Shown here: positions 3,199 through 40,122 of the stretch, in pieces | Layout of the letters: every line of letters begins with the position of its first letter | How positions within the stretch are numbered: the first letter of the stretch is position 1 | Assembly (NCBI GenBank): GCA_913061075.1 | Contig: CAJXSK010000002.1 | Location: 62,001 to 126,000 of the forward strand | Direction of reading: 5' to 3' | DNA from: an uncultured Piscirickettsiaceae bacterium | Lineage (GTDB): Bacteria; Pseudomonadota; Gammaproteobacteria; Methylococcales; Cycloclasticaceae | DNA length: 64,000 nucleotides | The notes under the pieces: model-generated | The model's database searches: none | Seen by the model: only the letters and a program-made list of their open reading frames with translations | What the model was told of the DNA's origin: nothing | Program-made: the position numbers and the translations under genes

Positions 3199-4890
3199 AT
3201 GAGTAACACTGAATTTATAACACCTTCAATTGATGACTTAAAAGAACGTATTCGGTTCTCTTTCGAAACAGGGCATGTGTGGTTAGGCGAACAACGCATG
3301 TTGCTGATGCACAGCGAGGCGATGGGCTCTTTACGCAAAGAGCTGATCGAAACAGTCGGTATTGAACGTGCGAAAGGAATTTTGATGCGTACGGGGTTTC
3401 AAGCGGGAGTTGCTGATGCGAAGTTAGCCATACAATTGCGCCCAAGTGCTAGTCCTGAAGAGCAGTTTTTCGTTGGCCCTCAGCTACATCAACTAGAAGG
3501 TTTTGTACGCGTTACGCCGCTCAAATTCGAAATGGATTTAGAAAAAAATCAGTTCCATATGAAGTTGCTTTGGGGTAGTTCATACGAAAGTGAAGAGCAC
3601 GTAAAAGCATTCGGCCCATCTAAAGAATCAGTCTGTTGGATGGAAATAGGCTATGCCAGTGGTTACAGTTCGGATTATACAGGCCAATCGATATTATTTG
3701 CTGAACATGAATGCCGTGCTAGTGGACACGATTCATGCGTCAGTGAAGGCAGGCCCGTTGCCGAATGGGATAATCCAGAAGAACTCACAAAATATTACGA
3801 ATCACACAGCATCGTGGATCAAATTCTTGATTTGCGTGATGAAGTGGTGACATTGCGTTCTTCGCTGATCGATCAGGAAGAATCAAATTGCAAAGTAATA
3901 GGTACATCAACAGCTATTAAAGAAGCATTGACCTTGTTAGGCAAAGCGGTACAAGGGCCGGTGACAGTTTTATTATTAGGTGAAACGGGAGTAGGTAAAG
4001 AGCTGTTTGCGCGTTCATTACACCGCAGAAGTGATAGAGAAGAACAGCCGTTTATCGCCGTCAATTGTGCGGCAATCCCCGATGATTTATTAGAAGCAGA
4101 GCTTTTTGGTGTTGATAAAGGCGCATATACCGGCGCACATCAATCGCGAGAAGGCCGTTTTGAAAGGGCAGATGGCGGCACGTTATTTTTAGATGAAATT
4201 GGTGATTTATCGTATTCGGCACAAGCTAAATTATTGCGCGTGTTGCAAGAAGGAGAGCTAGAACGAGTAGGTGGCACCAATGTCGTGAATGTTGATGTGC
4301 GAGTGGTGGCTGCAACACACGCTAATTTGTTGGAGAAAGTAGAAAAAGGCGAGTTTAGACGAGATTTGTTTTACCGACTGAACGTGTTTCCCATTAGTAT
4401 TCCAGCCCTTAGAGAGCGACCAGGCGATATTAGGTTATTGGTGGACAGTTTTATCGATCGATATAAAGTCAAATACCATAAAGAAATAAAAGGCATTACA
4501 CAACACGCCATGGCGCAACTCGAAACTCACCCTTGGCCTGGCAATATTAGAGAGTTAGAAAATGTTATTGAACGCGGGGTTTTGTTGTGTGATAACGGAA
4601 AGAAAATAGAGCTGCAACATTTGTTTGCGATGATGGCCATTGAACAATCCCCAGAAGCTGCGGTGAGTCCAACTGGGGACTTAAAAGATATTAAAAAAGG
4701 TGTTTATAACCAATTTGTAGATATGTTTTTTGATGCGCAAAATAATTTATTTGAAATTGAAGAAACGATATTAAAAGAGGCGCTTAACCGGTCTAAAGGA
4801 AATATGTCCAAAGCAGCAAGAGCATTGGGGATGACACGTCCACAATTGGCTTATCGTTTGGGTAAGCTTGATGATAAGGAGGGTATCTGA
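3199..4890 (+). CDS. XylR/DmpR-type sigma54-dependent activator sensing aromatics
   Basis: 563 aa, the size of XylR, DmpR and TbuT. Domains in order: XylR_N effector domain (about 10-115), V4R domain (about 125-190, with the ECRASGHDSC cysteine motif), a short linker (about 205-230), sigma54-interaction AAA+ domain (235-465) and a Fis-type helix-turn-helix (about 530-560, MSKAARALGMTRPQLAYR). Walker A is GETGVGKE (261-268), the sigma54-contact loop is GAYTGA (308-313, a Phe-to-Tyr variant of GAFTGA) and Walker B is GGTLFLDE (326-333). Such proteins bind phenols or alkylbenzenes through the N-terminal domains and activate -24/-12 promoters from upstream sites. Three such promoters occur at 8380, 12543 and 26978, and the window holds no other sigma54 activator. 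The gene is convergent with the AraC-type gene with no spacer. Confidence 0.93.
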   Translation: MSNTEFITPSIDDLKERIRFSFETGHVWLGEQRMLLMHSEAMGSLRKELIETVGIERAKGILMRTGFQAGVADAKLAIQLRPSASPEEQFFVGPQLHQLEGFVRVTPLKFEMDLEKNQFHMKLLWGSSYESEEHVKAFGPSKESVCWMEIGYASGYSSDYTGQSILFAEHECRASGHDSCVSEGRPVAEWDNPEELTKYYESHSIVDQILDLRDEVVTLRSSLIDQEESNCKVIGTSTAIKEALTLLGKAVQGPVTVLLLGETGVGKELFARSLHRRSDREEQPFIAVNCAAIPDDLLEAELFGVDKGAYTGAHQSREGRFERADGGTLFLDEIGDLSYSAQAKLLRVLQEGELERVGGTNVVNVDVRVVAATHANLLEKVEKGEFRRDLFYRLNVFPISIPALRERPGDIRLLVDSFIDRYKVKYHKEIKGITQHAMAQLETHPWPGNIRELENVIERGVLLCDNGKKIELQHLFAMMAIEQSPEAAVSPTGDLKDIKKGVYNQFVDMFFDAQNNLFEIEETILKEALNRSKGNMSKAARALGMTRPQLAYRLGKLDDKEGI

Positions 4891-8432: not shown

Positions 8433-8891
8433 ATGTCCATTCCAAAGCCAAGCAATTGCATGAGCATTGACGATTTAAGTATCGGTATGAAGGCCGAAAA
8501 GGTCTACACAATTAGCCATGAAGATGTGGTTAATTTTTCTAAACTGTCAGGTGACTGGAATCCAGCGCATCACGATGAAGAATACGCGGCGGCGAGTATA
8601 TTCAAACAACGCGTGACGCATGGCATGTTTTCGGTAATCCAGTTTTCAGGCATATTGGGGATGGATTTACCCGGGCTTGGAACCTTGTGGTTAAAACAAA
8701 GCGTTGAATTTCTGCGTCCCGGGTTTTTTGATAATGAATACCGCGCCGTGGTGGAAGTTATCGCCATCAATAAAGAAAATAATACTGTCACCTTTAGCAC
8801 TGAGTGTTTTGATAAGGAAGGCAGTAAATTCGTTAAAGGGGAGGCCGTTGTTAAGCCGATTCCTGCAAAACTAAAACAAGCCAGTCAATAG
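8433..8891 (+). CDS. MaoC-family (R)-specific enoyl-CoA hydratase-like protein
   Basis: 152 aa, a single hot-dog domain of the MaoC/PhaJ type. The hydratase signature is present: GDWNPAHHDEEYA then VTHGM, holding the catalytic Asp/His pair typical of R-hydratases. It hydrates enoyl-CoA double bonds or dehydrates 3-hydroxyacyl-CoA. It is the first gene after the -24/-12 promoter and 10 bp ahead of the fused 2-oxoacid oxidoreductase, so it may act on the CoA thioester that enzyme makes. Not every MaoC protein is catalytic on CoA esters; some are dehydratases in other pathways. Confidence 0.8.
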   Translation: MSIPKPSNCMSIDDLSIGMKAEKVYTISHEDVVNFSKLSGDWNPAHHDEEYAAASIFKQRVTHGMFSVIQFSGILGMDLPGLGTLWLKQSVEFLRPGFFDNEYRAVVEVIAINKENNTVTFSTECFDKEGSKFVKGEAVVKPIPAKLKQASQ

Positions 8892-8901
8892 GTGAGAGAA
8901 A

Positions 8902-11900
8902 ATGTCTGATTCAAATTCTAAAGATTACAAATTTATTCGCGAAGAAGGCCCTGTATTTCTATCGGGTAACCAAGCCTATTTACGGGTTGTATTTGAACAG
9001 CAGCGTCGTGACCGTGATGCCGGTTTAAATACGGGTGGCTTTATTTCCGGTTACCGAGGCTCACCGTTTGGTAATTTCGATACGGAATGTAAAGGTGTTG
9101 AAGCCTCTTTAAATGAGCGCGATATTCATTTTAATCCGGGTGTTAATGAAGCGATGGCAGCGACGGCTATTTGGGGTTCGCAGCAGATTGACTTTTTTGA
9201 AGGCCAACAGTTTGAAGGTGCGTTTGGCCTTTGGTACGGTAAAGGCCCAGGCGTAGATCAAGCAGCGGATGCGCTTCACCATGCCAACTTATGGGGAACG
9301 AGTAAACACGGCGGCGTGGTGATGGCAGTGGGTGATGACCCAATGAGTCGTTCATCCAGTATTCAACAACAAAGTGAATATGTACTGTCAGGCTTATGTA
9401 TTCCGATCATGCATTGTTCATCGGTGCAAGATATTTATGACTATGGCCTTATTGCCTATCAAATGTCGCGTTATGCGGGTGTTTGGATGGCGGTTAAGTC
9501 GGTGTCCGATATCGCTGAGTCTTGGTACATGGTGGATATTGATCCTAAGCGTACAGAGACGGTATTACCCGACCCAAGCGACTTTGTTATTCCAGAAAGC
9601 GGCGTGCACACACGTTGGCCGGATAATTCAGTTAACCAAGATGAGCGCATGGTTAATGCGCGTTTGCCTGCCGTTAAAGCCTTCACACGCGCAAATAAAT
9701 TAAACAAAGTAACACTGGATGCTCAAAAGCGCCGTGTGGGTATTATCACCGCCGGCAAAAGTTACCTTGATACGCTAGAAGCATTGGATGACTTACGTAT
9801 TGATGAAGCGATGCGCGATGAGCTTGGTTTGGCGGTGTTTAAAATAGCCGTTATTTGGCCAATGGAAGAAACGTTAGTACGTGAGTTCGCCGAATCGGTA
9901 GACGAAATTTTAGTCATTGAAGAATCGCGTCCGTTCCTAGAAACACAAGTTAAAGACATCTTATTTGATATGTCAATGGATATTCGTCCGTTGGTGATGG
10001 GTAAAAAAGGCCGTGATCAACAAACACAGTTCCCATCTAATGGTGAATTAACACCAGCACTTATTTCTAAAGCACTGGTTAATTGGTTAAAGCCTTATAA
10101 AACGACTGACTCCATGACTAAATGGATTGATGTGTTAGATAACACCGAAAAGCAACTTAGCGTGCCACGTAATACGGTGGAGCGTACACCGTATTTTTGT
10201 TCGGGTTGTCCGCACAGTTCGTCCACTAAGTTACCGGAAGGCTCAAGCGAACAGCTTATTGGTATTGGCTGTCATTTTCTCGTTGGTTTAATGGACAGAA
10301 ATGGCACCACTTATACGCAAATGGGTGGCGAAGGTGCCACCTGGGCAGGTGCGTCACCGTTCCTTAGCAATAGACACACCTTTGTTAATTTAGGTGACGG
10401 TACGTTTTACCATTCAGGTTCTACGGCTATCCGTCAGGCTATCGCGTCGGAAATAAATATTACCTATAAAATTCTGTTCAACGATGCTGTGGCGATGACA
10501 GGTGGACAATCTTTTGATGGCCCCTTGTCTGTAGAAGGCATTACACAACAAATGCATTCTGAAGGCGCTGCTCGAGTGGTGGTAGTTTCAAGAGAACCTG
10601 AGGCGTTGAATAAATCATTATTTGCACCGGGTACAGATGTGTATCACCGTGATGATTTACAACAAGTGATGAAAGAATTAGCAGACACAAAAGGTGTCAC
10701 CATTCTTGTTTACGAACAAACCTGTGCGACAGAATTACGCCGCCGTCGTAAACGTAAAATTGTGGAAGCCCCTAAAAAACTCACGTTCATTAACTCACGT
10801 GTGTGTGAAGGCTGTGGTGATTGCGGTGTTCAATCAAATTGCCTGTCTGTTCAGCCGTTAGAAACAGAGCTAGGTCGCAAGCGTGTTATTGACCAATCAG
10901 GTTGTAACTTAGACTTCAGCTGCGTGAAAGGTTTTTGCCCAAGCTTTGTGACGATTGAAGGTGGAGAATTGGCAAAAGGCAATGCGGTGAGTTTGTCGGA
11001 TGATGTGTTCGCTGCTTTACCAGAGCCTACACCTAAACCATTAGACGGCGTCTTCGGTTCATTGGTTTGCGGTATTGGTGGAACTGGTGTTGTGACTATT
11101 TCATCGATGATTGGTGAAGCGGCAAAAGCAGAAGGCTTTGCTTCGCAAGTGCTGGATTTAACGGGTATGGCGCAAAAATTTGGCGCGGTGTATTGTCACC
11201 TTAAAGTGGCGAATAATGTTGAAGATCTTAACTCAACACGTTTATCTATTGGTAAAGCAGACTTGCTAATTGGCGCAGATATTGTGACCAGCGCAAGCGA
11301 TGAAGGCATGTCACTGTTACGTGAAGGGCACACTAAAGGTGTGGTCAATTCACACGGTATTGTAACGGGTGCATTTACTCGTGATGGTGACTTTACTATT
11401 CCTGTGGATGATATGAAACAAGCACTAGAACGTTTCACGGGTGCAGATAACTGTAGTTTCTTTGATTCAACAGACGTATCAGAAACACTCACCGGCAATA
11501 CCATTGGCGCGAACATGATGTTGTTAGGTTACGCTTGCCAAAAAGGTTGGTTACCGGTTAAGCGTCAGTCATTGGAAGATGCAATTACAGAAAACGGTGT
11601 AGCAGTAGCTTACAATCAGCGGGTATTTAAAATAGGTCGCTTAATGGCGCATGAGCCAGAAGCTGTTCAAGCGTTAATGGATCAAGGTGCGCCAACACCT
11701 GAATGGGAAGTGCTTTCAGCCACAACGGATGAGTTGATTGCGCGCCGCAAAAAGGATCTTGTTAGCTATCAAAACACGGCTTACTCCAATAAGTATGCGG
11801 CATTGGTATATAAAGTGCGTGAGGCTGAAGCGAAGCTGTCGGGTAACTCGGATGATATTACCGAATCAGCGGCACGTTATCTGTATAAATTGATGGCGTA

Positions 11901-12393
11901 TAAAGATGAGCTAGAAGTGGCGCGTTTGTACACCGATGGCACATGGAAAAAACAACTGGAAGAAAAATTCGCTGGTGATTACAAAATAAAATTCCATATG
12001 GCGCCACCACTTATTTCAAAACGTGACCCCATTTCAGGGCACCTTAAAAAACGTGAATTTGGCGGGTGGATGTTATCGGCATTAAAAATGGCGTCACTGT
12101 TTAAAGGGATGCGTAGCAGTCCATTAAACCCATTTGGTTATTCTCAAGAACGTAAAGAAGATAAAGCAATGTTGGACCAGTACGAAGGCGTGCTAAATCA
12201 AATTATTGATGGGTTAAGTGAAAATAATAAGGAAGCCGCATTAGAAATGGCGCGTGTACCAGAGTTTATTCGAGGTTATGGGCACGTGAGAACGCAAAAT
12301 ATTGAATCTGCCGTTCGTCGTTGGAAAAGTCTAGATGATCAATTTAGAAACCCTAAAAAGATTATAAAGGTAGCTATGGGAACAACGGCGTAA
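8902..12393 (+). CDS. Fused indolepyruvate ferredoxin oxidoreductase-family enzyme
   Basis: 1163 aa, the single-chain proteobacterial form. Members convert 2-oxoacids, classically aryl pyruvates, with CoA to acyl-CoA and CO2 while reducing ferredoxin. Domains in order: pyruvate-oxidoreductase-like pyrimidine domain (about 15-240), TPP-binding domain with LGDGTFYHSG and downstream FNDAVAMTGG (about 495-545), cysteine-rich FeS segments (CEGCGDCGVQSNC near 635 and CVKGFCP near 675), gamma-type domain starting GIGGTGVV (about 720-905), and a C-terminal helical extension of about 200 aa. It follows the MaoC-type gene by 10 bp behind a -24/-12 promoter. Placement inside an aromatic-degradation island suggests an arylpyruvate or similar oxoacid as substrate; that is inference. 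The partner ferredoxin is not obvious nearby. Confidence 0.87.
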   Translation: MSDSNSKDYKFIREEGPVFLSGNQAYLRVVFEQQRRDRDAGLNTGGFISGYRGSPFGNFDTECKGVEASLNERDIHFNPGVNEAMAATAIWGSQQIDFFEGQQFEGAFGLWYGKGPGVDQAADALHHANLWGTSKHGGVVMAVGDDPMSRSSSIQQQSEYVLSGLCIPIMHCSSVQDIYDYGLIAYQMSRYAGVWMAVKSVSDIAESWYMVDIDPKRTETVLPDPSDFVIPESGVHTRWPDNSVNQDERMVNARLPAVKAFTRANKLNKVTLDAQKRRVGIITAGKSYLDTLEALDDLRIDEAMRDELGLAVFKIAVIWPMEETLVREFAESVDEILVIEESRPFLETQVKDILFDMSMDIRPLVMGKKGRDQQTQFPSNGELTPALISKALVNWLKPYKTTDSMTKWIDVLDNTEKQLSVPRNTVERTPYFCSGCPHSSSTKLPEGSSEQLIGIGCHFLVGLMDRNGTTYTQMGGEGATWAGASPFLSNRHTFVNLGDGTFYHSGSTAIRQAIASEINITYKILFNDAVAMTGGQSFDGPLSVEGITQQMHSEGAARVVVVSREPEALNKSLFAPGTDVYHRDDLQQVMKELADTKGVTILVYEQTCATELRRRRKRKIVEAPKKLTFINSRVCEGCGDCGVQSNCLSVQPLETELGRKRVIDQSGCNLDFSCVKGFCPSFVTIEGGELAKGNAVSLSDDVFAALPEPTPKPLDGVFGSLVCGIGGTGVVTISSMIGEAAKAEGFASQVLDLTGMAQKFGAVYCHLKVANNVEDLNSTRLSIGKADLLIGADIVTSASDEGMSLLREGHTKGVVNSHGIVTGAFTRDGDFTIPVDDMKQALERFTGADNCSFFDSTDVSETLTGNTIGANMMLLGYACQKGWLPVKRQSLEDAITENGVAVAYNQRVFKIGRLMAHEPEAVQALMDQGAPTPEWEVLSATTDELIARRKKDLVSYQNTAYSNKYAALVYKVREAEAKLSGNSDDITESAARYLYKLMAYKDELEVARLYTDGTWKKQLEEKFAGDYKIKFHMAPPLISKRDPISGHLKKREFGGWMLSALKMASLFKGMRSSPLNPFGYSQERKEDKAMLDQYEGVLNQIIDGLSENNKEAALEMARVPEFIRGYGHVRTQNIESAVRRWKSLDDQFRNPKKIIKVAMGTTA

Positions 12394-12396
12394 GCT

Positions 12397-12477
12397 ATTT
12401 AATGATTTAATGATTTAATGATTTAATGATTTAATGATTTAATGATTTAATGACTTATATGACTTAATGATTTAATG
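12397..12477. repeat. 8-bp tandem repeat, seven perfect ATTTAATG units plus degenerate copies
   Basis: Seven exact head-to-tail copies of ATTTAATG run from 12397 to 12452. An altered unit, ACTTAATG (12462-12469) and one more perfect copy (12470-12477) follow. The array starts just after the oxidoreductase stop codon and ends about 67 bp before the -24 element of the next promoter, so copy-number change could alter promoter geometry. Confidence 0.95.
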
Positions 12478-12542: not shown

Positions 12543-12559
12543 TTGGCATATTTTGTGCC
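12543..12559 (+). promoter_or_regulatory. Sigma54 (-24/-12) promoter of the envelope cluster
   Basis: TTGGCATATTTTGTGCC has GG at 12545-12546 and GC at 12557-12558 with the required 10-nt gap. The -24 box TTGGCA is excellent; the -12 box TGTGCC is weaker. The predicted transcript start near 12570 leaves about 29 nt with a GAGGGG ribosome site before the ATG at 12599. Confidence 0.72.
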
Positions 12560-12598
12560 TTGAAACTGGAATTAAGAAATGATTCATCGAGGGGAAAT

Positions 12599-13591
12599 AT
12601 GAAATTTCGTGCGTTGTTAGTACCGCTAGCTTGCTTAACGTTAATAGCCTGTGAAGCGCCGTTGGTATTAGACGGAGTTGAGCAATCTAAAAAACAACCA
12701 ATTCACCGAACCGACCGTATTCAAACAGCGGCCGCCTTGGGTGATGATGTGGTGATTGCAGGCATTGGTTTTATTTTAAATTCTAACGATGCAGGTAAAA
12801 CGTGGCAACGCACTCAACCTGAAGGTTTACCGGCATTTATTAGTGGGGCTATTTGCCCCGATAAAACGCAAGTAGTTGTAACGGCTGAAAAGCAGGCTTG
12901 GGTCTCAACGGATAGCGGTAAAACATGGCAAACTAATAATCTGGACACAGAAGAAGCGCCACAGCACCTTAGTTGTGGGCCAGATAATCGATTATGGGTT
13001 GCGGCCAGTTTTAGCACCTTACTAAACAGTACCGATCAAGGTAAAACGTGGCAGCAAACAACGTTTGATGAAGATTTAATTTTCACTTTTATTAAATTTT
13101 TCGATGCGCAAAATGGCGTGGCAGTCGGTGAGTTTGGTAGTGTTTATAGTACCGAAGATGGCGGTGAAAATTGGTTGCCAAAAGAAGAGTTTATTCCCAA
13201 TGAGTTTTTCCCATTAGCGGTTGATTTTACTGACAGTCAACATGGCTGGGTCGGTGGTTCAAGCGGTGTTATTTTCCATACAGCAGATGGCGGCGCAACG
13301 TGGGTTAAAGAAGACACCGGTACTGATGCACCCATTTATGGCTTGTCAGCAAGCCCATTGGGCGTATATGCAGCCGGTGGTTTTGGCACGTTTTTAGAAA
13401 GGCAGTCAGAAGTAGACGGCGTTGCTGCATGGAAACGTTCATCGGCGGTTACAACACGCTTTTATCTACGTGCAATTGCGCCACTGGGTGATAATAAGGT
13501 TATTTTAGGTGGTGGAGCGGGAACGCTTCAAGCAATGATTGATGATGGCTCAGGTCAACTGGTCATTGCCAACATTAAGGAAGGGGAGTAA
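12599..13591 (+). CDS. YCF48/BNR-repeat lipoprotein of the envelope cluster
   Basis: 330 aa from the ATG at 12599, which is preceded by GAGGGG. An upstream in-frame ATG at 12500 would put the lipobox about 50 residues in and would start before the predicted promoter. The N-terminus MKFRALLVPLACL ends in a lipobox LIAC, so this is a lipoprotein. At least five Asp-box/BNR-like repeats follow (NDAGKTW, TDSGKTW, TDQGKTW, TEDGGENW, TADGGATW), predicting a beta-propeller like the YCF48/HCF136 assembly factors. Its gene ends 2 bp before the MMPL transporter gene. In many hydrocarbon- and steroid-degrading proteobacteria this four-gene set occurs together. Function is inferred as a periplasmic scaffold or partner of the transporter. 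Confidence 0.85.
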   Translation: MKFRALLVPLACLTLIACEAPLVLDGVEQSKKQPIHRTDRIQTAAALGDDVVIAGIGFILNSNDAGKTWQRTQPEGLPAFISGAICPDKTQVVVTAEKQAWVSTDSGKTWQTNNLDTEEAPQHLSCGPDNRLWVAASFSTLLNSTDQGKTWQQTTFDEDLIFTFIKFFDAQNGVAVGEFGSVYSTEDGGENWLPKEEFIPNEFFPLAVDFTDSQHGWVGGSSGVIFHTADGGATWVKEDTGTDAPIYGLSASPLGVYAAGGFGTFLERQSEVDGVAAWKRSSAVTTRFYLRAIAPLGDNKVILGGGAGTLQAMIDDGSGQLVIANIKEGE

Positions 13592-13593
13592 TT

Positions 13594-15933
13594 GTGGGTG
13601 CGATAACAAATCAACTTAAAAAAATTGATCGCTTAGTCTTTGCATTTCCAAAAGTAACGGCAGGCGTTATTTTGGCGATTACTGCATTCTTCGCTATGCA
13701 AATTCCAGCCGTGAAAATGGTTTCAAACTTTGCTGATTTATTGCCGCAAGGGCATGAGTATATTCAAACGCATAATACGTTGACTGAAACATTTGGTGGC
13801 GCGAACACGGTTATCGTAGATATAAAAGTGGATGAAGGCACTATTTTCACCAACGATGTATTGGCTAGAATTAAACGCCTAACCGATAAAGTGGATGCGC
13901 TGCCTGCGGTCAACCATAACTTGGTGAACAGCTTAACGCACAGGAATACGCGCCGTGTTTGGCTAAACGAATACGGCACCATGAAGTCAGCACCTTATTA
14001 CGATCCGTTAAAAGAACACTATACGGACGAAGAATTGCAAACCATGCAAAACCAAGTGGTGGCAAACCCTCGTGTTTACGGATTGCTGGTTTCTCCAGAT
14101 TTAAAATCCGCGCTTATTAAAGGCACGCTGAATGAAGGTGATCTTGACTACGAAGAAGTATTTACAGCGCTTACAAAATTACGTGATGAAGAAAAGGCAG
14201 ATGGCTTAACCATTTATGCCAGTGGACAGCCTGTTTTGGTTGGTTGGGTAACGTCTTATGTGAGCGAAGTGATTCAGATTTTTGGTTACACAATTGCCAT
14301 TTTATTGTTGTTGTTAATTGCTTATTTTAGAAAATTCTACGGTTTATTATTACCGCTTATCGGTATTGCACTAACCACTACATGGGGTTTGGGTATGTTG
14401 TCCTTATTGGGCTACAACCTAGATCCTTTAATGTTGGTTGTACCATTTTTAGTGTCGGCCAGAGCCATGTCGCATGGTGTGCAAATTGTAGAAAGGTTCT
14501 ACACTGAATTGGGTGAAAGTGGCAATAAAGAAGAGGCTGCAAGAAATACCTTTGAAGGTCTATTTAGACCGGGTTCTTTGGGCGTTATTTCCGATGCGAT
14601 TGGTTTGTTACTTATTTCATTAGGTACCGTGCCTATTAACGACAAACTAGCTATTTACGCCTCACTTTGGGCGGGCAGTGTGATTGTTACGGTGCTGATA
14701 TTCTTACCTGTAGTGCTGCAAATTCTTCCGCAAAAAGGTGAAAGGCCAACAGAGCATCCGTTATTGGAAAAATTATTTCCAGTCGTGTCAAAAATCTCAT
14801 GTACACGTAAAGGTGCGTTAGCAACCTTATTCGTCTCATTGGGTTTGGTGATTGGTGGAGCCTACTTAAGTTCCAAAGTACAAATTGGTGAGTCAGAATC
14901 TGGTTCTCCTTTATTGTATGCAGACCATGATTACAATGTGTCAGCTAACGCCATTAACAGTGCGTTTCCAGGTTCTGAAGAAATGTTTATTCTTGCGCAT
15001 TCAGATAAGCCCCATGGTTTGAAACAACCGGATGCGATTAAAGCCTTGGCTGATTTCCAGAATTACATGATGCTCGACCCAGACCTGGGTGGCACTAAAG
15101 GTCTACCGGACTTGCTGTCGCAGGCAAGCCGTATTATTCGTAATGATGACCCGCGTTGGTTAGTGTACCCAAAAGACGAATTTGAATCTGGCGGTTTAAT
15201 GTTCGCCTATATGATGTCTAGTCCAATTCCGGGTGCGTTGTTAGAGTTCATTGACCCTGATGAACAAAACGCCAATATCGTTTTCTATTATAAAGACCAT
15301 AAAGGCGAAACCATTCGTCGTGCAATACACATGGTTAAAGAATGGAGCAACAGTGCAGCGGCGCAAGTTGAAGGTTTCTCATTGAAACTGGCCGGTGGCT
15401 TAATTGGGGTAACAGCAGCGGTAAACGAAGCATCATATGAAACCAATGTCGTTGTTATTCCTCTGGTTTTTTTATTAATTCTTGTATTTGTAACAGCGTT
15501 TTACTGGTCTGTTCACGCGGGTTGGCTCATGTTATTAGCAATGGGTTTCGCTACCACATTAACTTACGCCTACATGGGTATCGTTGGTTTAGGCATTAAT
15601 GTGAATACCGTGCCTATTTTGGCCGCAGGTATCGGCATTGGTGTGGATTACTCTATTTACATAATGGATAAAATTAAAGAACAGTACGCCAAACTTGGTA
15701 GCTTTGAAGCAGCTATTGAAAAAGCGATTAATACCACCGGTGTGGCGATTGGGTTTACTGCGTTCTCGTTAATAGCCGGTGTGATTATGTGGGTGCTGTT
15801 ATCCACTATGCGTTTCCAGGCAGATGCGGCGATGTTGCTCATCGTTATGTTATTGCTTAATGCTTTGGCAGCAATGTTCTTAGTGCCAGCTTGGGTGATG
15901 ACGTTTAAGCCAAAATTTATTCAGGAAAAGTAA
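13594..15933 (+). CDS. MMPL/RND-superfamily transporter
   Basis: 779 aa starting at GTG, 2 bp after the lipoprotein gene and preceded by AAGGAAGGGGAG. The layout is the RND/MMPL one. One membrane segment lies near 20-40, then a large periplasmic domain (about 45-225), a block of five segments (about 230-390), another segment near 405-425, a second periplasmic domain (about 430-620) and a last block of five (about 625-770). The motif GIGVDYSIYIMDKIKE in the second block is typical of the family. MMPL and HpnN-like proteins move lipids or other hydrophobic molecules using the proton gradient. No membrane-fusion protein or TolC gene accompanies it, so the DUF1302 and DUF1329 proteins presumably complete the path. 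Direction of transport cannot be told from sequence. Confidence 0.87.
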   Translation: MGAITNQLKKIDRLVFAFPKVTAGVILAITAFFAMQIPAVKMVSNFADLLPQGHEYIQTHNTLTETFGGANTVIVDIKVDEGTIFTNDVLARIKRLTDKVDALPAVNHNLVNSLTHRNTRRVWLNEYGTMKSAPYYDPLKEHYTDEELQTMQNQVVANPRVYGLLVSPDLKSALIKGTLNEGDLDYEEVFTALTKLRDEEKADGLTIYASGQPVLVGWVTSYVSEVIQIFGYTIAILLLLLIAYFRKFYGLLLPLIGIALTTTWGLGMLSLLGYNLDPLMLVVPFLVSARAMSHGVQIVERFYTELGESGNKEEAARNTFEGLFRPGSLGVISDAIGLLLISLGTVPINDKLAIYASLWAGSVIVTVLIFLPVVLQILPQKGERPTEHPLLEKLFPVVSKISCTRKGALATLFVSLGLVIGGAYLSSKVQIGESESGSPLLYADHDYNVSANAINSAFPGSEEMFILAHSDKPHGLKQPDAIKALADFQNYMMLDPDLGGTKGLPDLLSQASRIIRNDDPRWLVYPKDEFESGGLMFAYMMSSPIPGALLEFIDPDEQNANIVFYYKDHKGETIRRAIHMVKEWSNSAAAQVEGFSLKLAGGLIGVTAAVNEASYETNVVVIPLVFLLILVFVTAFYWSVHAGWLMLLAMGFATTLTYAYMGIVGLGINVNTVPILAAGIGIGVDYSIYIMDKIKEQYAKLGSFEAAIEKAINTTGVAIGFTAFSLIAGVIMWVLLSTMRFQADAAMLLIVMLLLNALAAMFLVPAWVMTFKPKFIQEK

Positions 15934-15956
15934 GGCTTATTTAAAAGGCAATAAAA

Positions 15957-15987
15957 CCGTACGAAAGTTGTTGCTAATTTCGTACGG
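15957..15987. repeat. Inverted repeat between the MMPL and DUF1302 genes
   Basis: Arms CCGTACGAAA (15957-15966) and TTTCGTACGG (15978-15987) are perfect 10-bp complements around an 11-nt loop. There is no T-run, so this is not a classic terminator. It may be an mRNA-processing or stability hairpin, or an operator. A 12-bp palindrome GCTTATATAAGC (16015-16026) follows closely. Confidence 0.7.
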
Positions 15988-16063
15988 AGTAGTATAAAGG
16001 CAACATAAGGGTGGGCTTATATAAGCTTGTTTGCATAAAAATAATATTTAAAAGGGGATAAAC

Positions 16064-18052
16064 ATGAAGAACTCTAGATGGCATCTTAAGCCATTAACGG
16101 TAGCTTTTGCACTCGTAGGATTAGTTGGCCTATCGTCGCAACAAGCTGTTGCGTCAATCGACACAGGCGATGATACAACTGAACTCAGTGGTTTTGTTGA
16201 AAATGCAACGTACTTTAGAGATAGCGTTGGTTTAACAAAATTCCGTAATACACTTCAATTAGAAGGTACAAAATTACTCGGTAATTTGGGTGCGTTTAGC
16301 GAAGTGAGCATCAATGGCACGTTCAGGGCCACTTATGATGGTGTGTATGACCTTAACTCAAATGAGTTCGGTGATGATGCGGGTGGTTCAGTGTTGTTAG
16401 AGAGTCTAGTTGATTTTGGCGCAGGGAACTTAGTACCTAATGGCGGCGGGATACCATTAGGTACTCTTACGCCGGCTGGCCTTGTAAATGATGGCTTGAT
16501 TGTTTTAGGCGAGCACCTGCATGATGCTGATGGTGGTGTTACATTCCCAGTCCCTGTTCGTCCATGTGATGAGGATTCACGTGGTTGCTTAGGTGGCTAT
16601 ATGGATGATGATTTGGATGATTTGCGTTATTCAGATTTTAATGACCGTTGGGACTTTATTCGTGAATTGTATATTAATGCAACTATTGATATGGATAGCG
16701 GTACAGCCTTCAACTTGCAAGTAGGTAAAAAACAAGAAGTTTGGGGTCGTACTGATTTGTTCCGTGTGTTGGATGTTCTAAATCCAGTTGATTTCTCAAG
16801 ACAAAACATCTATGACGAATTAGAAGACATTCGTATTCCACTTTGGATGGCCACTGCAGAATGGCAGTTCGGCGCAAATGATGTGCTTGATGACATGAAT
16901 GTTCAGTTTGTGTGGATATTCGATAAATTCCGTCCAAACAGGCTAGGACAGGCTGGTACGCCATACCAAATTTTAGATGCCGGTTCATTGTTTAGAGGGC
17001 TAAATAACTGTTGGGACAATGGTTGTACGGTATCAAACTTTGCTGGCGGAAATACAACAACTAACTTTGGCCCAGGCGTTCTCGGTATTCGTGATGTGCA
17101 TCTACCAGATTGGTCTCTTGAAAACTCTCAGTTAGGTGCGAAATTTGAGGGTGTATACAGAGATATTGGTTTCTCATTAAACGCATTTTATACTCGTTCG
17201 CAACTGCCTTCACTGCGTGGTGGTATACCATCAGACAACCCATTTACAGGTGGTGGATTACCTGGGTTACCACCTGAAGGTGCTTTTGGTCCAGAACCAC
17301 AAGTTTATCCATACTTAATTTCGTTTGATATTCACTTCCCACGTGTTGTACTTGTAGGTGGTTCGTTAGATTATTATGCTGATTCACTAAAAACAGCTTT
17401 CCGCGGTGAGTTGGCTTGGACGAAGGGTGAGGAATTTGCTAATACATTAAAACCACGTTTGTTCTCAGAGTCTGAAGTAGTTCGTTGGGTAATTGGTGCC
17501 GATCACAACTTCTTTATTCGTTCAATCAATAAGAACAAAGCGTTCTTAGCGTCGTTCCAAACATTTGGTCAACATATTTTAGATCATGATCGTGAAAATG
17601 GACCGTTAGGCGAAGTTGGAATTCCAGATAGAGAGAATAACTATATTTCTACTCTATTGCTAAAAGGTTGGTGGTTCCAAGATCGTGTTAGCCCACAAAT
17701 TATTCAAGCGTATGACTGGGGTGCTAATGCATATGTTGTCTCTCCTTCTGTGGATTGGTTGATTAATGATAGTTGGCGTCTACAGGTTGCGGCTAACTTG
17801 AAATTTGGTGATGGCGCACGTAAGTTCTCAGATTGTCGTACTTGTAACCCATTTTCGCCATTTACAGCAACACCATTGCATAACAATGCGGTTGCGCTTC
17901 CATCACCACCATTCCCTCCTGGAACGTTTGCTGCTGATGCAGGCGATATTGGTTTAGGTGGTTTTGAACCACTAGGTCGTTTCCAATCTGGCCCTATCGG
18001 TATGGCGCAAAAAGAAGACGAAATTCAAATTTCACTTCGTTACCGCTTCTAG
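16064..18052 (+). CDS. DUF1302-family outer-membrane beta-barrel protein
   Basis: 662 aa. The N-terminus MKNSRWHLKP plus a hydrophobic stretch ending QQAVA-S is a Sec signal peptide. The chain ends ISLRYRF, with the C-terminal Phe and alternating pattern expected of an outer-membrane barrel. The motif VGKKQEVWGRTDLFRVLDVLNP is characteristic of DUF1302 proteins. Paired cysteines occur in CDEDSRGC, CWDNGC and CRTC, probably forming disulfides in the periplasm or on loops. No biochemical function is established for the family. Its constant linkage with DUF1329, YCF48-like and MMPL genes, as here, suggests a channel for hydrophobic solutes. AAGGGG precedes the ATG. A terminator follows the gene. 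Confidence 0.88.
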   Translation: MKNSRWHLKPLTVAFALVGLVGLSSQQAVASIDTGDDTTELSGFVENATYFRDSVGLTKFRNTLQLEGTKLLGNLGAFSEVSINGTFRATYDGVYDLNSNEFGDDAGGSVLLESLVDFGAGNLVPNGGGIPLGTLTPAGLVNDGLIVLGEHLHDADGGVTFPVPVRPCDEDSRGCLGGYMDDDLDDLRYSDFNDRWDFIRELYINATIDMDSGTAFNLQVGKKQEVWGRTDLFRVLDVLNPVDFSRQNIYDELEDIRIPLWMATAEWQFGANDVLDDMNVQFVWIFDKFRPNRLGQAGTPYQILDAGSLFRGLNNCWDNGCTVSNFAGGNTTTNFGPGVLGIRDVHLPDWSLENSQLGAKFEGVYRDIGFSLNAFYTRSQLPSLRGGIPSDNPFTGGGLPGLPPEGAFGPEPQVYPYLISFDIHFPRVVLVGGSLDYYADSLKTAFRGELAWTKGEEFANTLKPRLFSESEVVRWVIGADHNFFIRSINKNKAFLASFQTFGQHILDHDRENGPLGEVGIPDRENNYISTLLLKGWWFQDRVSPQIIQAYDWGANAYVVSPSVDWLINDSWRLQVAANLKFGDGARKFSDCRTCNPFSPFTATPLHNNAVALPSPPFPPGTFAADAGDIGLGGFEPLGRFQSGPIGMAQKEDEIQISLRYRF

Positions 18053-18064
18053 GAATAACGACAG

Positions 18065-18095
18065 CGGCGCTCAGTTGAGCGCCGTTGTGTTTTCC
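18065..18095 (+). terminator. Hairpin/terminator after the DUF1302 gene
   Basis: CGGCGCTCA (18065-18073), GT and TGAGCGCCG (18076-18084) form a perfect 9-bp GC-rich stem, followed by TTGTGTTTT. It probably attenuates rather than fully isolates the DUF1329 gene 45 bp further on. It could set DUF1302 to DUF1329 stoichiometry. Confidence 0.75.
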
Positions 18096-18139
18096 AAATA
18101 TAATCAGAATATTAAAAAAGTTTTAAGGAGATTTACAAC

Positions 18140-19450
18140 ATGAAAAAATTAACAAAAGGTTTACTTGGAGCGGCTTTATTAAGCGTCGCTGCAAGCGCAT
18201 CAGCGGTAACCGATGCAGATATTGATAAGTCGTTTAAACCCTACACAAACGGCTTTCCAACAGTTGAAGGTGTTGTGCCAGGTTTAGTGATTAATAAAGA
18301 CAATGTGGATACATACGCCAGTGTTTTAGACGAAGGTATGATTAAACACATTAAAGACGGTTGGGTAGAAATTACTGTCGGTGAGCCAATGGATTTTGTG
18401 CTTAACCAAGGGTATATCGATGCGACTAAAGCGGGTGCAAAAAACCATAAATTAGGCGCTAAAGTAGGTGAGATTGAAGGTTATGTGGCCGGCCGTCCAT
18501 TTCCAATTGAGCCAAGTTTAGATGACCCACGTGCTGGTGAAAAAATGGCATGGAACTTCCAGTACGGTTATAACTGGGGCGATGGTGCTGCGATTTCACC
18601 TTTCTATTGGAAGTATCGTAATATGAATACGGGGCAAATCGAACGTACGATTAAGTTTAATTTTTACTTTTTAAATTTTGCTCACCGTGTAAACCATGAG
18701 CCAAAACCTGAGTTTCCAAAAAACCCAGGTGAATTGTTCCGTGGTATTTATTTGAATGTTGAAGAACCGTTTGATGTTAAAAACACGCAGCTTCTTATTC
18801 ACCGTTCACAAAATGATTTGAAACGTGATAACGCTTGGTTGTATCTTGGTTTTCAACGTCGCGTGCGTAGATTGGCAACAGGCCAAGTAACGGATTCATT
18901 CTTGGGTTCTGACCTTATGATTGAGGATTTCGAGGGCTACAACGGTCGTATATCTGATATGAATTGGACATTCAAAGGTACAAGGACGATGTTGTTACCT
19001 ATGTATGACTCTTCTAAGCAAAAACGTACAGCCGAGTTTAATGAGTCTGATGGCTACACATATTCTACGTATCACGGTAAAGGCGGCTGTTTCCCTAACG
19101 TAACGTATTCTTTAAGAAAGGTGTATGTTGTTGAATCTGACCCAGTTGATCCTAACCATCCTATTGGCAGACGTATGCATTATATGGATGCACAAACCTT
19201 TACATTACCTCGTACGGTTACTTACGATCGCCAAGGTAAATATTGGAAATCTTGGATGATTGGCCAAGCACACCCAGATTCACACCACCCCGTTAACAAA
19301 GGTACAGGTGTTTCTGTTGATGATTCGTTTGGTATGATGGACGTACAAAGCATGCATTGCACAACAGGTCAATTTAAAGGCCTTGTTGATCCAAGTTTAG
19401 TTAAGAAGAAACAATTCAGCGTCCAGTATATGCGCTCATTTGGTAAGTAA
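18140..19450 (+). CDS. DUF1329-family periplasmic protein
   Basis: 436 aa. The signal peptide is MKKLTKGLLG plus a hydrophobic core ending SASA-V. The mature protein matches the DUF1329 family, which has a LolA/LolB-like fold and is therefore expected to hold a hydrophobic ligand or lipid in a beta-sheet groove. Aromatic residues are frequent, for example NFQYGYNWGDG and FYFLNFAHR. It sits 88 bp after the DUF1302 gene and completes the envelope cluster; strong AAGGAG precedes the ATG. I infer that it shuttles a hydrophobic molecule between the MMPL transporter and the outer-membrane protein. A terminator closes the unit. Confidence 0.87.
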   Translation: MKKLTKGLLGAALLSVAASASAVTDADIDKSFKPYTNGFPTVEGVVPGLVINKDNVDTYASVLDEGMIKHIKDGWVEITVGEPMDFVLNQGYIDATKAGAKNHKLGAKVGEIEGYVAGRPFPIEPSLDDPRAGEKMAWNFQYGYNWGDGAAISPFYWKYRNMNTGQIERTIKFNFYFLNFAHRVNHEPKPEFPKNPGELFRGIYLNVEEPFDVKNTQLLIHRSQNDLKRDNAWLYLGFQRRVRRLATGQVTDSFLGSDLMIEDFEGYNGRISDMNWTFKGTRTMLLPMYDSSKQKRTAEFNESDGYTYSTYHGKGGCFPNVTYSLRKVYVVESDPVDPNHPIGRRMHYMDAQTFTLPRTVTYDRQGKYWKSWMIGQAHPDSHHPVNKGTGVSVDDSFGMMDVQSMHCTTGQFKGLVDPSLVKKKQFSVQYMRSFGK

Positions 19451-19471: not shown

Positions 19472-19502
19472 AAGAAAGCCGGCTTGTAGCCGGCTTTCTT
19501 TT
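19472..19502 (+). terminator. Rho-independent terminator after DUF1329 gene
   Basis: A 13-bp stem, AAGAAAGCCGGCT (19472-19484), loop TGT and AGCCGGCTTTCTT (19488-19500), runs into two further T residues. It ends the envelope cluster. Confidence 0.93.
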
Positions 19503-26886: not shown

Positions 26887-26902
26887 TTTATCATATGATG
26901 AA
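26887..26902. promoter_or_regulatory. Candidate XylR/DmpR-type upstream activator site
   Basis: TTTATCATATGATGAA matches the TTGATCAATTGATCAA-type palindrome bound by XylR/DmpR relatives at 12 of 16 positions and has a perfect ATCATATGAT core. It stands about 80-90 bp before the -24 box at 26980. A second site, usual for this class, was not found. Confidence 0.6.
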
Positions 26903-26977: not shown

Positions 26978-26994
26978 ATGGCATATATATTGCT
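26978..26994 (+). promoter_or_regulatory. Sigma54 (-24/-12) promoter of the phenol hydroxylase/meta operon
   Basis: ATGGCATATATATTGCT has GG at 26980-26981 and GC at 26992-26993, 10 nt apart, with TGGCA and ATTGCT boxes near consensus. The predicted transcript start is about 27005, only 2 nt before the first ATG of the operon. Confidence 0.78.
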
Positions 26995-27006: not shown

Positions 27007-27276
27007 ATGACTATGACAAACAAAGATATTTCAGGTATTCCAGGGCAACGCTATGTGCGGGTAACGAATGTTGTTAACGAAAAATACGTAGAGTTTGAAT
27101 TTGCAATAGCCGACCCAACTATTAATGTTGAGTTGGTATTGCCTTTCGAGCATTTTAAAAAGTTTTGTGAAACCAATCAGGTGAAGCACTTAACGCCTGA
27201 ACAAGAGGCAGCTGTTGACTACGATAAGTTGAAATGGCGGTTCGGTGTTCCAGGCTTTGACGAAAACGATTTATAA
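27007..27276 (+). CDS. dmpK: Phenol hydroxylase assembly protein P0 (DmpK type)
   Basis: 89 aa, like DmpK/PhK P0 (about 92 aa), which is needed to build the active phenol hydroxylase but is not part of the purified enzyme. The N-terminus MTMTN resembles DmpK, and YVEFEFAIADP and KWRFGVPG are family motifs. It is the first gene of the operon, as in other multicomponent phenol hydroxylases. A second ATG at 27013 is also possible. No Shine-Dalgarno sequence precedes either ATG, and the predicted transcript would begin only 2-8 nt upstream, so translation may be leaderless. Confidence 0.9.
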   Translation: MTMTNKDISGIPGQRYVRVTNVVNEKYVEFEFAIADPTINVELVLPFEHFKKFCETNQVKHLTPEQEAAVDYDKLKWRFGVPGFDENDL

Positions 27277-27312
27277 ACAATAAGATTAATATTTAAAGGT
27301 TAGGAGATATAC

Positions 27313-28323
27313 ATGAGTATTGAGATTTCAGCAAAAACCATACAGCCAGTTAGATTGTCGTATGGCAATTTAAAAGAAAGGTTTGGTGATAAGAAGCCAG
27401 CTTCTCGTTATCAAGAAGCTGTTTATGATGTACAGCCCACGACAAATTTTCAATACCTTCCAATTTGGAATACAAAGCACGAGCTTTACGATAAAAGTAA
27501 AACAGCCATAGTGATGGAGGATTGGTACAGCTTTGCTGATCCGCGCCAATATTATTATGGCACTTATACAATTGCTCGTTCTAAGCAGCAAGACGTGGCA
27601 GAGCATAACTTTTCTTTTGTCGATAAGCGTGATTTGTTTGATTCTGTACCAGAAGAAGTAAAACAAGCGGCGCGTGAAATTTTAGTGCCGTTGCGTCATG
27701 TTGAGTGGGCGGCGAACATGAATAACTGCCAAATTACGGATGAGTGTTATGGTTCAAACTTTAGTACGCTTGCCATGTTTAACGCAATGGATAGATTGGG
27801 GATGGCTCAATATGTAACGCGCCTTGGTTTGTTATTAGACGGTAATGAAGAAACATCGTTGGACGCAGGCAAGCAAGCTTGGATGGAAGCACCTGAATGG
27901 CAAGGTTTACGACACGCAATCGAAGATATGTTTGTACTGGATGATTGGTTTGAATTGATGGTTGCGCAAAACTTCGTACTTGACGGGTTAGTGTTTCCGC
28001 TTCTTTATGATCGTTTTGAAAAAAAATTAACGGTAGAAGGCGGCGCAACTATCGCTATGCTGACTGAGTTTATGGATGATTGGTACAAAGAAACGGTACG
28101 TTGGACAAATGCATTGGCAAAAGTAACCGCAAAAGAGTCAGAAGCCAATCAAGAATTATTAAGCAAATGGACCAATAAGTGGACCGATAGATTAGTGGGT
28201 GCGTTGGAGCCAGTGGCCGCTAAAGCATTCGGCGCTGATGGTATTGAGCAATTAACAAAAGTTAAAGAAGAGTTGCTAGCTCGCCTGACTAAAAGTGGCG
28301 TTACTGGATTAAAAAGGAGTTAA
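27313..28323 (+). CDS. dmpL: Phenol hydroxylase P1 / beta oxygenase subunit (DmpL type)
   Basis: 336 aa, normal for the DmpL/PhL subunit of soluble di-iron monooxygenases. It has the ferritin-like helical fold but lacks the full iron-ligand set, supporting the alpha subunit in the (alpha-beta-gamma)2 hydroxylase. Typical are ARSKQQDVAEHNFSFVDKR, VPLRHVEWAANMNNCQI and the C-terminal helical tail. AGGAG lies upstream; the P2 gene starts 2 bp after its stop, so the subunits are coordinately made. Confidence 0.93.
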   Translation: MSIEISAKTIQPVRLSYGNLKERFGDKKPASRYQEAVYDVQPTTNFQYLPIWNTKHELYDKSKTAIVMEDWYSFADPRQYYYGTYTIARSKQQDVAEHNFSFVDKRDLFDSVPEEVKQAAREILVPLRHVEWAANMNNCQITDECYGSNFSTLAMFNAMDRLGMAQYVTRLGLLLDGNEETSLDAGKQAWMEAPEWQGLRHAIEDMFVLDDWFELMVAQNFVLDGLVFPLLYDRFEKKLTVEGGATIAMLTEFMDDWYKETVRWTNALAKVTAKESEANQELLSKWTNKWTDRLVGALEPVAAKAFGADGIEQLTKVKEELLARLTKSGVTGLKRS

Positions 28324-28325
28324 GT

Positions 28326-28604
28326 ATGTTAGATAAGAAAAATACGGTATTTTTAATTGTTCAAGATAATGAAGATGCGCGCCCAATTATTGAAGCGGTA
28401 GAACAAGATAATCCAGACGCTAACATTCAATATCAGCCGGGAATGGTTCGTATGGAAGGAGCGGGTCAGTTGGTTGTTAACCGTGAGACAGTAGAAGAGC
28501 AAATCGGGCGTGAATGGGATGTGCAAGAACTTCATCTTGTTCTAGTGTCATTGGCGGGTAACGTTGATGAAGACGAAGATAAATTTGAACTTAGCTGGCA
28601 CTAA
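28326..28604 (+). CDS. dmpM: Phenol hydroxylase effector protein P2 (DmpM type)
   Basis: 92 aa, the MmoB/DmpM regulatory component with no cofactor. It binds the hydroxylase and tunes oxygen activation and product release. The family pattern is seen in VFLIVQDNEDARPIIEAVE, QPGMVRMEGAGQL and TVEEQIGREWDVQELHLVLVSLAGNV (given as pieces). It lies between the beta and alpha subunit genes as in the dmp operon. A similar but distinct effector is encoded at 40783 for the second monooxygenase. Confidence 0.93.
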   Translation: MLDKKNTVFLIVQDNEDARPIIEAVEQDNPDANIQYQPGMVRMEGAGQLVVNRETVEEQIGREWDVQELHLVLVSLAGNVDEDEDKFELSWH

Positions 28605-28630
28605 CTGCCAGAGTTAAAGAGGATAATAAG

Positions 28631-30148
28631 ATGCCAGCAAAAAAATTAAATTTACGTAAGCGTTACGAGTTACTAACGCGTGGAATGGGATGGGAAACAA
28701 CACATCAAGATATGGATGATGTGTTTCCTTACGATTCATTTGAAGGAATTAAGATTACAGATTGGGATAAATGGGAAGACCCGTTCCGTTTAACGATGGA
28801 TGCTTATTGGAAATTCCAAGCTGAAAAAGAGAAAAAACTGTACGCAGTTATTGATAGCTTCGCGCAAAACAACGGCCAAACTAACTTGTCCGATGCCAGC
28901 TACTTGAGTGCGATTAAATTATTTATTACGGGTGTTACGCCGCTAGAATATGGTGCTCACCGTGGGTTTGCTCATTTGGGTCGCCACTTCCGTGGTGATG
29001 GTGCGCGTATTGCTTGCCAAATGCAGGCGATAGATGAGTTGCGTCATGCGCAAACTCAAATTCATACAATTAGTCATTACAATAAGCACTTCAATGGGTT
29101 GCACGACCCGTTCCATCAGTTTGACCGTGTGTGGTATTTGTCTGTGCCTAAGTCATTTGTTGAAGATGCAATGACAGCTGGTCCATTTGAATTTATTACA
29201 TCAATTTCATTCGCATTTGAATACGTGCTAACTAATATGTTGTTTGTGCCGTTTATGTCTGGCGCAGCTTACAACGGTGATATGGCGACGGTAACCTTTG
29301 GTTTCTCAGCACAGTCTGATGAGTCGCGCCATATGACGCTAGGTCTTGAAATTATTAAATTTATGCTTGAACAACATGAAGATAATTTACCAATCGTTCA
29401 ACGCTGGATGGATAAGCATTTCTGGAGAGCGTATCGTTTATTAGCGTTAGTGTCAGCAATGCAAGATTACATGCTTACTAATAGCCCGCTGTCTTGGAAA
29501 GAAGCGTGGGATGTGTACTTCGTTGAAAACGGCGGTGCGTTATTTGAAGATTTATCCCGTTATGGTTTGAAAATGCCTAAGTATCATGAGTTGGCCACGG
29601 CGGAAGCAGAGCATTTGAGTCATCAAGTATGGTCAGTCTTTTGCCTGCTTGGTAATGCAACGGGTTTCCATACGTTCTTACCAACAGAAGAAAAAATGGA
29701 TTGGTTGTCAGAAAAGTATCCAAATACGTTTGATAAATACTATCGTCCACGTTTTGAGCATTGGGCAAAGCAAAAAGAAGAGGGAACATTTCAATATTTA
29801 GCAGCGTTGCCTCAGTTATGCCAAGTATGTCAAATTCCAATGATTTTCACCGAAGTGGAAACAGATCCGATGCAGCTTAGCTTTAGAGTATCTGAATATA
29901 AGGGTGATAAATACAATACTTGTTCAGACGGTTGTAAAGATATCTTTGATCATGAGCCTGAAAAATATGCACAGGCATGGTTGCCAGTCCATCAAATTTT
30001 CCAAGGTAACAGTGGTGGAGCAACCATCCCAGAAGTGCTTGAGTGGTATAAATTCGCACCAGAAGATGGCGGCGATTATATCGGTTCTCAAGATCATGCG
30101 CGTTGGCAGGAATGGAAAGGCGCAGACGATAAAGTGAAACAGGCTTAA
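28631..30148 (+). CDS. dmpN: Phenol hydroxylase P3 / alpha oxygenase subunit (DmpN type)
   Basis: 505 aa catalytic subunit. The carboxylate-bridged di-iron ligands are all visible: Glu106 (LEYG), Glu136-x2-His139 (DELRH), Glu197 (FEYVLTN) and Glu231-x2-His234 (DESRH). It inserts one oxygen atom into phenol or methylphenols, giving catechols that feed the catechol 2,3-dioxygenase encoded downstream. The C-terminal YHS-like segment with CQVCQIP and CSDGCKDIF cysteines is usual for this family. Start preceded by AAAGAGGATAATAAG. Confidence 0.95.
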   Translation: MPAKKLNLRKRYELLTRGMGWETTHQDMDDVFPYDSFEGIKITDWDKWEDPFRLTMDAYWKFQAEKEKKLYAVIDSFAQNNGQTNLSDASYLSAIKLFITGVTPLEYGAHRGFAHLGRHFRGDGARIACQMQAIDELRHAQTQIHTISHYNKHFNGLHDPFHQFDRVWYLSVPKSFVEDAMTAGPFEFITSISFAFEYVLTNMLFVPFMSGAAYNGDMATVTFGFSAQSDESRHMTLGLEIIKFMLEQHEDNLPIVQRWMDKHFWRAYRLLALVSAMQDYMLTNSPLSWKEAWDVYFVENGGALFEDLSRYGLKMPKYHELATAEAEHLSHQVWSVFCLLGNATGFHTFLPTEEKMDWLSEKYPNTFDKYYRPRFEHWAKQKEEGTFQYLAALPQLCQVCQIPMIFTEVETDPMQLSFRVSEYKGDKYNTCSDGCKDIFDHEPEKYAQAWLPVHQIFQGNSGGATIPEVLEWYKFAPEDGGDYIGSQDHARWQEWKGADDKVKQA

Positions 30149-30167
30149 GCCGCATAGGAGCATAGAT

Positions 30168-30527
30168 ATGGCAGTTATTGCAAAAGACGGTTATGTAGAC
30201 ATCGTCAGAGATAAAGTAGAAAATTTTCACGGCAACCAACTGGTTCACGTGTCTTGGGATGATCATTTGTTGTTTTCAGCAGCACAAGCGTTTCCGTTAC
30301 CACCAGAAATGCCGTTTCAGGCATTGGTGTCTGAAGTGATGGCAAGCGTTTTTTCTTATCACGAAGATTATGAAAAAATTGATTGGGCAGCGGTTAAGTG
30401 GATGTTGGATGGTGAGAATTTTACCCCAGAGATGGATAAATCGTTAAAAGACAACGGTGTTTGTCATAAGTCTTTAATTCGTTTCAAAACACCGGGCTTA
30501 ATGGGTATTAATGGAACTAGGTTATAA
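30168..30527 (+). CDS. dmpO: Phenol hydroxylase P4 / gamma subunit (DmpO type)
   Basis: 119 aa, the small third subunit of the hydroxylase. Recognisable segments are DIVRDKVENFHGNQLVHVSWDD (in pieces), FPLPPEMPFQALV and the C-terminal HKSLIRFKTPGL. It has no redox centre and stabilises the oxygenase complex. AGGAG is upstream; the reductase gene follows 3 bp after the stop. Confidence 0.93.
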   Translation: MAVIAKDGYVDIVRDKVENFHGNQLVHVSWDDHLLFSAAQAFPLPPEMPFQALVSEVMASVFSYHEDYEKIDWAAVKWMLDGENFTPEMDKSLKDNGVCHKSLIRFKTPGLMGINGTRL

Positions 30528-30530
30528 GCG

Positions 30531-40075: not shown

Positions 40076-40085
40076 CTAAACAGCT

Positions 40086-40103: not shown

Positions 40104-40122
40104 GCTAGATAAGGAGAAAAAA

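Follow-up and report, generated by a model that had tools for sequence, protein, structure and literature searches.

A four-gene envelope cassette in an aromatic island

The window, by which we mean the whole 64,000-nucleotide stretch of DNA that was analysed, belongs to a 2.26 Mb genome in 20 contigs, and the source genome is Cycloclasticus, an oil-degrading marine bacterium. MMPL orthologues that are 89–98% identical occur in records labelled Cycloclasticus and in one labelled Methylococcaceae UBA975, which groups within the same genus. Between 12599 and 19450, genes for a YCF48-type propeller lipoprotein, an MMPL protein, a DUF1302 protein and a DUF1329 protein follow one another on the + strand. 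All four pass their Pfam cut-offs, and the envelope cluster described in the initial annotation is present where it was placed.

12599–13591, + strand: YCF48-type beta-propeller lipoprotein, AmeC/PhnL-like (PSII_BNR 8.6e-18; Ycf48 PDB chains 4e-20; lipobox LIAC)
13594–15933, + strand: MMPL/RND transporter, HAE3-like and AmeD-like (MMPL 4e-20; predicted TM segment with a GVDY motif)
16064–18052, + strand: DUF1302 outer-membrane beta-barrel, AmeA-like, with signal sequence (DUF1302 2.7e-36)
18140–19450, + strand: DUF1329 periplasmic protein, AmeB-like (DUF1329 5.8e-73; LolA-like domain at ~125–435, plus an extra ~125 N-terminal residues)
19472–19500, unstranded: intrinsic terminator hairpin ending the operon (13 pairs; T/A runs on both sides)

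The first gene was read from ATG 12599, which gives the lipobox LIAC, and the GTG at 12500 of the mechanically called ORF was rejected as its start. The best NCBIfam match of the MMPL protein, TIGR00921 (HAE3), scores 116 bits and so lies below the 352 cut-off, and the likeness of this protein to AmeD is one of family rather than of direct sequence comparison. In alignment with MmpL3, its GIGVDY segment falls on GLGIAIDY, where the Asp-Tyr pair of MmpL3 serves proton relay.

Because the DUF1302 sequence found no match among solved structures, fold comparison was used instead. The AlphaFold model (pLDDT 75.9) has a barrel of about 18 strands, as counted from the DSSP string, and its best matches are OccK/OprD-family channels at Z of about 22–23. 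Among these are OccK2 (Z 22.9, rmsd 2.9 over 299 residues), a vanillate-bound OpdK structure and a BenF-like porin; AlgE follows at 21. By its model, then, this protein is an OprD/OccK-like barrel, in keeping with the outer-membrane barrel claimed at the outset; the model resembles the uptake porins OprD/OccK as much as exporters such as AlgE, and likeness of fold does not show direction. The LolA/LolB fold claimed for the DUF1329 protein is likewise borne out in its model (pLDDT 90.2): residues 125–435 match LolA3 of Porphyromonas gingivalis with Z 25.0 (rmsd 2.0 over 238), and the model matches the DUF1329 protein structure 4z48 with Z 23.3, as against Z 8–10 for classical LolA and LolB.

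The hairpin after the DUF1329 gene is found at the same place in three relatives, making four genomes in all. The next gene (19593) does encode a membrane protein, of the FA_desaturase family by Pfam, as the initial annotation of a membrane hydroxylase had it. However, we rejected this gene as a member of the unit, because the conserved terminator lies between; its counterpart is missing from that place in L043 and L044. A Pfam and NCBIfam scan of the four-gene operon and neighbouring genes found no membrane-fusion protein (MFP) or TolC-type gene, which agrees with the architecture originally described. The cassette therefore does not have the partner genes (MFP and TolC-type) of classical HAE1 tripartite efflux; it combines DUF1302, DUF1329, YCF48 and MMPL genes in one cassette, as AmeABCD does, and a trans-envelope set of four proteins is supported. 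The MMPL and DUF1302 genes are separated by 130 bases, and within this gap lies an inverted repeat, CCGTACGAAA...TTTCGTACGG (15957–15986), that is not clearly conserved in relatives.

The location in an aromatic island is also supported, and the island includes a XylR_N/V4R/sigma54 activator gene. Two soluble di-iron monooxygenase systems occur in this one island: a dmpK-P-like phenol hydroxylase with a sigma54-type promoter (27009–31595) and a second Phenol_Hydrox-family pair (38579–42099). Between an alcohol dehydrogenase gene and the cassette, positions 8433–12393 contain MaoC-like and indolepyruvate ferredoxin oxidoreductase-family genes; this insertion occurs only in the window and in L041/L051, four other relatives being without it, and a separate GG-N10-GC element belongs to it at 8380.

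Promoter and candidate activator

Several putative control elements accompany the cassette and the phenol hydroxylase operon.

3199–4890, + strand: XylR/DmpR/MobR-type sigma54-dependent activator, the likely regulator (Pfam XylR_N, V4R, Sigma54_activat and the Fis-type HTH domain HTH_8)
12397–12477, unstranded: 10-copy tandem octamer ATTTAATG (TRF), at the site where relatives carry XylR-type palindromes
12543–12558, + strand: sigma54 -24/-12 element TTGGCATATTTTGTGC, ~55 bases before the first start codon (rpoN in genome)
26887–26902, + strand: TTTATCATATGATGAA, a XylR/AphR-type palindrome ahead of dmpK and putative enhancer in the same regulon (13/16 match to TTGATCATTTGATCAA; score reached in 0/500 shuffles)
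26978–26994, + strand: sigma54-like promoter ATGGCATATATATTGCT before the phenol hydroxylase operon (score 14.6)

The element at 12543–12558 has the form TTGGCA-N8-GC with correct GG-N10-GC spacing. As sole evidence of a promoter we rejected it: GG-N10-GC-like sites are as numerous in shuffled sequence as in the window, and the site alone is not above chance. The promoter is accepted because its position is conserved across orthologues: YGGYA-N7-TGC stands 50–62 bases before the start codon in six of the seven orthologous Cycloclasticus cassettes. The chance of finding it at that place is 0.0001–0.002 per locus, and none of 20,000 shuffles of the orthologous loci put it in two or more of them together. 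The sites were already known when the pattern was drawn up, and the genomes are relatives of one another, so the figure should not be read as a strict probability. The exception is the closest relative, L041, in which no sigma54 element was found before the cassette (upstream of 9305); a terminator-like hairpin stands where the element is lost.

Beyond the genus, a -24/-12 site also precedes the cassette in Marinobacterium lacunae (L063), Alteromonas antoniana (L064), Paraglaciecola polaris (L066) and a Niveispirillum MAG (L086, at -128), with a XylR-type gene 2–3 kb upstream of the cassette in the last three. Where the cassette comes after meta-cleavage genes, as it does in Rhodocyclales-type loci, no local -24/-12 site was found. 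With rpoN in the genome and GG-N10-GC at a conserved place, the cassette promoter is, to judge from sequence, of sigma54 type, and the promoter proposed in the initial annotation is thus upheld through conservation of position and not by the single site.

The candidate activator at 3199–4890 has MobR as its best NCBIfam match, at 601 bits against a cut-off of 999. The palindrome recognized by the AphR class is GCTTGATCATTTGATCATGC (PMC6449761), and L045 (TTTATCATTTGATAAA) and L046 have clear counterparts ~117 bases ahead of the -24 region, with a score reached by none of 500 shuffles. At the dmpK promoter in the window, a sigma54 site and a XylR-type palindrome occur together. The window's own cassette promoter yielded no significant XylR-type palindrome (P 0.37), and the octamer copies were rejected in this role as they score no better than chance. 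The nearest relatives, L041 and L042, have about 3 octamer copies, and the array is possibly an expanded remnant of activator half-sites. A genome-wide search with a pattern drawn from the dmpK site and those of relatives (≤2 mismatches) gave 31 matches against 19 in the reversed control, which is too weak to define a regulon; the only exact match was the dmpK site, which had helped define the pattern.

Since the window promoter is without a significant palindrome, we infer control of the cassette by the 3199 activator from the class and position of the latter. The cassette may share its effector with the degradation genes, a suggestion that goes back to the initial annotation.

Related cassettes and known systems

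The order YCF48-MMPL-DUF1302-DUF1329 (C-D-A-B in Ame terms) recurs in 28 of the 40 closest loci; of the other 12, six are truncated at a contig end or sit on very short contigs, five are without one detectable gene and one is rearranged. Genes for phenol hydroxylase, catechol dioxygenase or hydroxymuconic semialdehyde dehydrogenase are found in 13 of these loci. The MMPL proteins of the cassette group form a single monophyletic clade (36 rows, SH-aLRT 100).

The closest described counterpart is AmeABCD of Castellaniella defragrans, which shares DUF1302, DUF1329/LolA-like, YCF48/COG4447 and HAE3 RND proteins, a place in a hydrocarbon-catabolism island and the lack of MFP and TolC (PMC6394551). 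Deletion of ameABCD lowered tolerance to apolar monoterpenes and raised Nile Red accumulation, while growth on perillyl alcohol, perillyl aldehyde and acetate + limonene was normal (PMC6394551); because the Nile Red difference appeared only with CCCP, this evidence for efflux is modest. AmeABCD differs from the cassette in its monoterpene substrates, in that sigma54 control is not reported for it (PMC6394551) and in its order, A-B-C-D, so that the C-D-A-B order here and in 28/40 close loci marks a sister arrangement and not the ame order itself. A second cassette of the same Cycloclasticus genome (L035) does have the A-B-C-D order.

A cassette of the same families (COG4447-COG1033-PF07044-DUF1302) is assigned to the AphR/AphS/AphT regulon; AphR control is predicted in Burkholderia sp. 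383, and cassettes of this type adjoin phenol genes in Methylibium and others (PMC6449761). These are betaproteobacterial, their control is a prediction only and no transport data accompany them (PMC6449761). In Aromatoleum aromaticum EbN1, an 'efflux' cluster requires the sigma54-dependent EtpR and substrate for expression, and thus shares with the cassette solvent efflux beside an aromatic pathway and a sigma54-dependent regulator (PMC4630880); it differs in serving an anaerobic p-ethylphenol pathway, and the likeness drawn here to ebA326-ebA335 is one of setting and regulation. The statement in the initial annotation that no mechanism is settled for these four families was overstated, as it overlooked both the AmeABCD deletion phenotype (PMC6394551) and the predicted AphR control (PMC6449761).

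Other systems are more partial matches. The phn/nanopod cluster of Delftia Cs1-4 has adjacent YCF48 (PhnL), DUF1302 and DUF1329 genes within a PAH cluster but is linked to vesicle/nanopod formation (PMC3110197, PMC3958437). The benzene degrader ORM2a has YCF48, DUF1302, DUF1329 and MMPL proteins that are only distantly similar (PMC13101534). In P. putida, PP_0765/PP_0766 (DUF1302 and DUF1329) work genetically with the periplasmic and RND proteins PP_2018/PP_2019, with contacts predicted; these lie at two separate loci, have a Tween 20 phenotype and adjoin no aromatic island (PMC10866462). The lipid exporters MmpL3 and HpnN share the MMPL fold and a GxxxDY transmembrane segment with the cassette protein, whereas their substrates are lipids and they have no dedicated barrel or DUF1329 partner. 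The cassette type has therefore already been described in other hydrocarbon degraders, including its predicted control by a XylR/DmpR-type regulator; the present cassette is a new member of the AmeABCD-like type, in which the promoter is well conserved and the genes stand in a distinct order.

Direction of transport

Our analysis favours, with a probability of about one half, a single operon for proton-driven, AmeABCD-type trans-envelope export of the island's hydrophobic aromatics or membrane-active intermediates. The MMPL protein would take the compound out of the inner membrane, driven by the proton gradient, and the LolA-like DUF1329 protein would ferry it through the periplasm inside a hydrophobic cavity. 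The propeller lipoprotein may dock this carrier to the pump, and the DUF1302 barrel would let the compound out of the cell. A XylR/MobR-type activator, probably that at 3199–4890, would turn the operon on when aromatics are present. Export is favoured by the one-strand gene set, conserved terminator and -24/-12 element, by the C-D-A-B order beside aromatic genes and the MMPL clade, by the LolA-like and porin-like folds and the MmpL3-like D-Y segment, and by the Ame deletion phenotype and the EtpR-dependent EbN1 cluster. The growth loss on Tween 20 (PP_0765/0766) and the phenanthrene defect (PhnL) speak against it, as they fit uptake or vesicles, and the missing sigma54 site in the nearest relative, L041, counts against its promoter.

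The better placed of two serious alternatives, though less probable than export, is that under solvent stress the set delivers a membrane lipid to the outer membrane, or that it drives the formation of outer-membrane vesicles as proposed for Delftia phn. When phnL (YCF48) was disrupted, extracellular vesicle protein fell by 96% and growth on phenanthrene was slower (PMC3958437), and nanopods contain DUF1302 and DUF1329 proteins (PMC3110197); still, vesicle effects could be indirect and the phnL disruption may be polar. The DUF1329 model has a lipoprotein/lipid-carrier fold, and the related HpnN and MmpL3, also among the matches here, carry lipids (PMC6394551), but the conserved unit contains no lipid-synthesis gene.

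Uptake, the other serious alternative, seems slightly less probable still. Here DUF1302 would admit the hydrophobic substrate, DUF1329 would shield it as far as the inner membrane and the MMPL protein would import or recycle it. PP_0765/0766 and PP_2018/2019 are required for growth of P. putida on Tween 20, and co-folding predicted contacts of DUF1329 both with the barrel and with the pump pair (PMC10866462); among solved structures, porins of OprD/OccK type, which take up substrates, come nearest to the DUF1302 model, and the cassette is probably regulated together with catabolic genes. However, RND/MMPL proteins of known direction export, and the normal growth of the ameABCD mutant on perillyl compounds and acetate + limonene fits toxicity rather than loss of uptake (PMC6394551). 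Uptake could also be served by the three FadL/TodX-family genes of the genome, which favours export, and there are three full-length HAE1 RND proteins, so that neither uptake nor drug efflux needs the cassette by default.

A chance or decayed site at 12543, with transcription constitutive or by read-through from the MaoC-IOR operon, is improbable: the site departs from consensus (GTGCC for TTGCW), is of a kind no more frequent in the window than chance allows and is missing from L041, and the upstream block has an element of its own at 8380, but the position and core of the site are conserved in 6/7 orthologues and in four unrelated genera.

Should export hold, it would represent an RND route with a lipid-carrier shuttle rather than a continuous tube, and would help account for the solvent tolerance of obligate PAH degraders. 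DUF1302 and DUF1329 are common among hydrocarbon degraders, and the cassette offers a clean case: a single operon whose promoter is conserved and of a known type, for which a candidate regulator can be named and related genera are at hand for comparison (Alteromonas, Paraglaciecola, Marinobacterium and Aromatoleum). It is conceivable, albeit a long shot, that the whole C-D-A-B clade in aromatic degraders is a sigma54-controlled exporter in which a soluble LolA-like carrier replaces the MFP and an OprD-like barrel replaces TolC, and that in this genome octamers replaced the activator palindromes, with repeat number tuning expression.

The Cycloclasticus genome carries four further MMPL sets, on contigs C5, C6 and C17. 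L035 (C5) has the order DUF1302-DUF1329-YCF48-MMPL, L036 has YCF48-MMPL-unassigned protein-DUF1329, and L037 and L038 are MMPL/LolA-like pairs near Rieske-type oxygenase genes; such genes lie close to three of the four sets (L036, L037 and L038). This distribution suggests one pump set per substrate class. Among the loci compared, four (L101, L110, L116 and L125) come from records titled Klebsiella pneumoniae MAG, yet their MMPL loci group with environmental Gammaproteobacteria (L125 with deltaproteobacterial MAGs), and these records are probably mislabelled or mis-binned.
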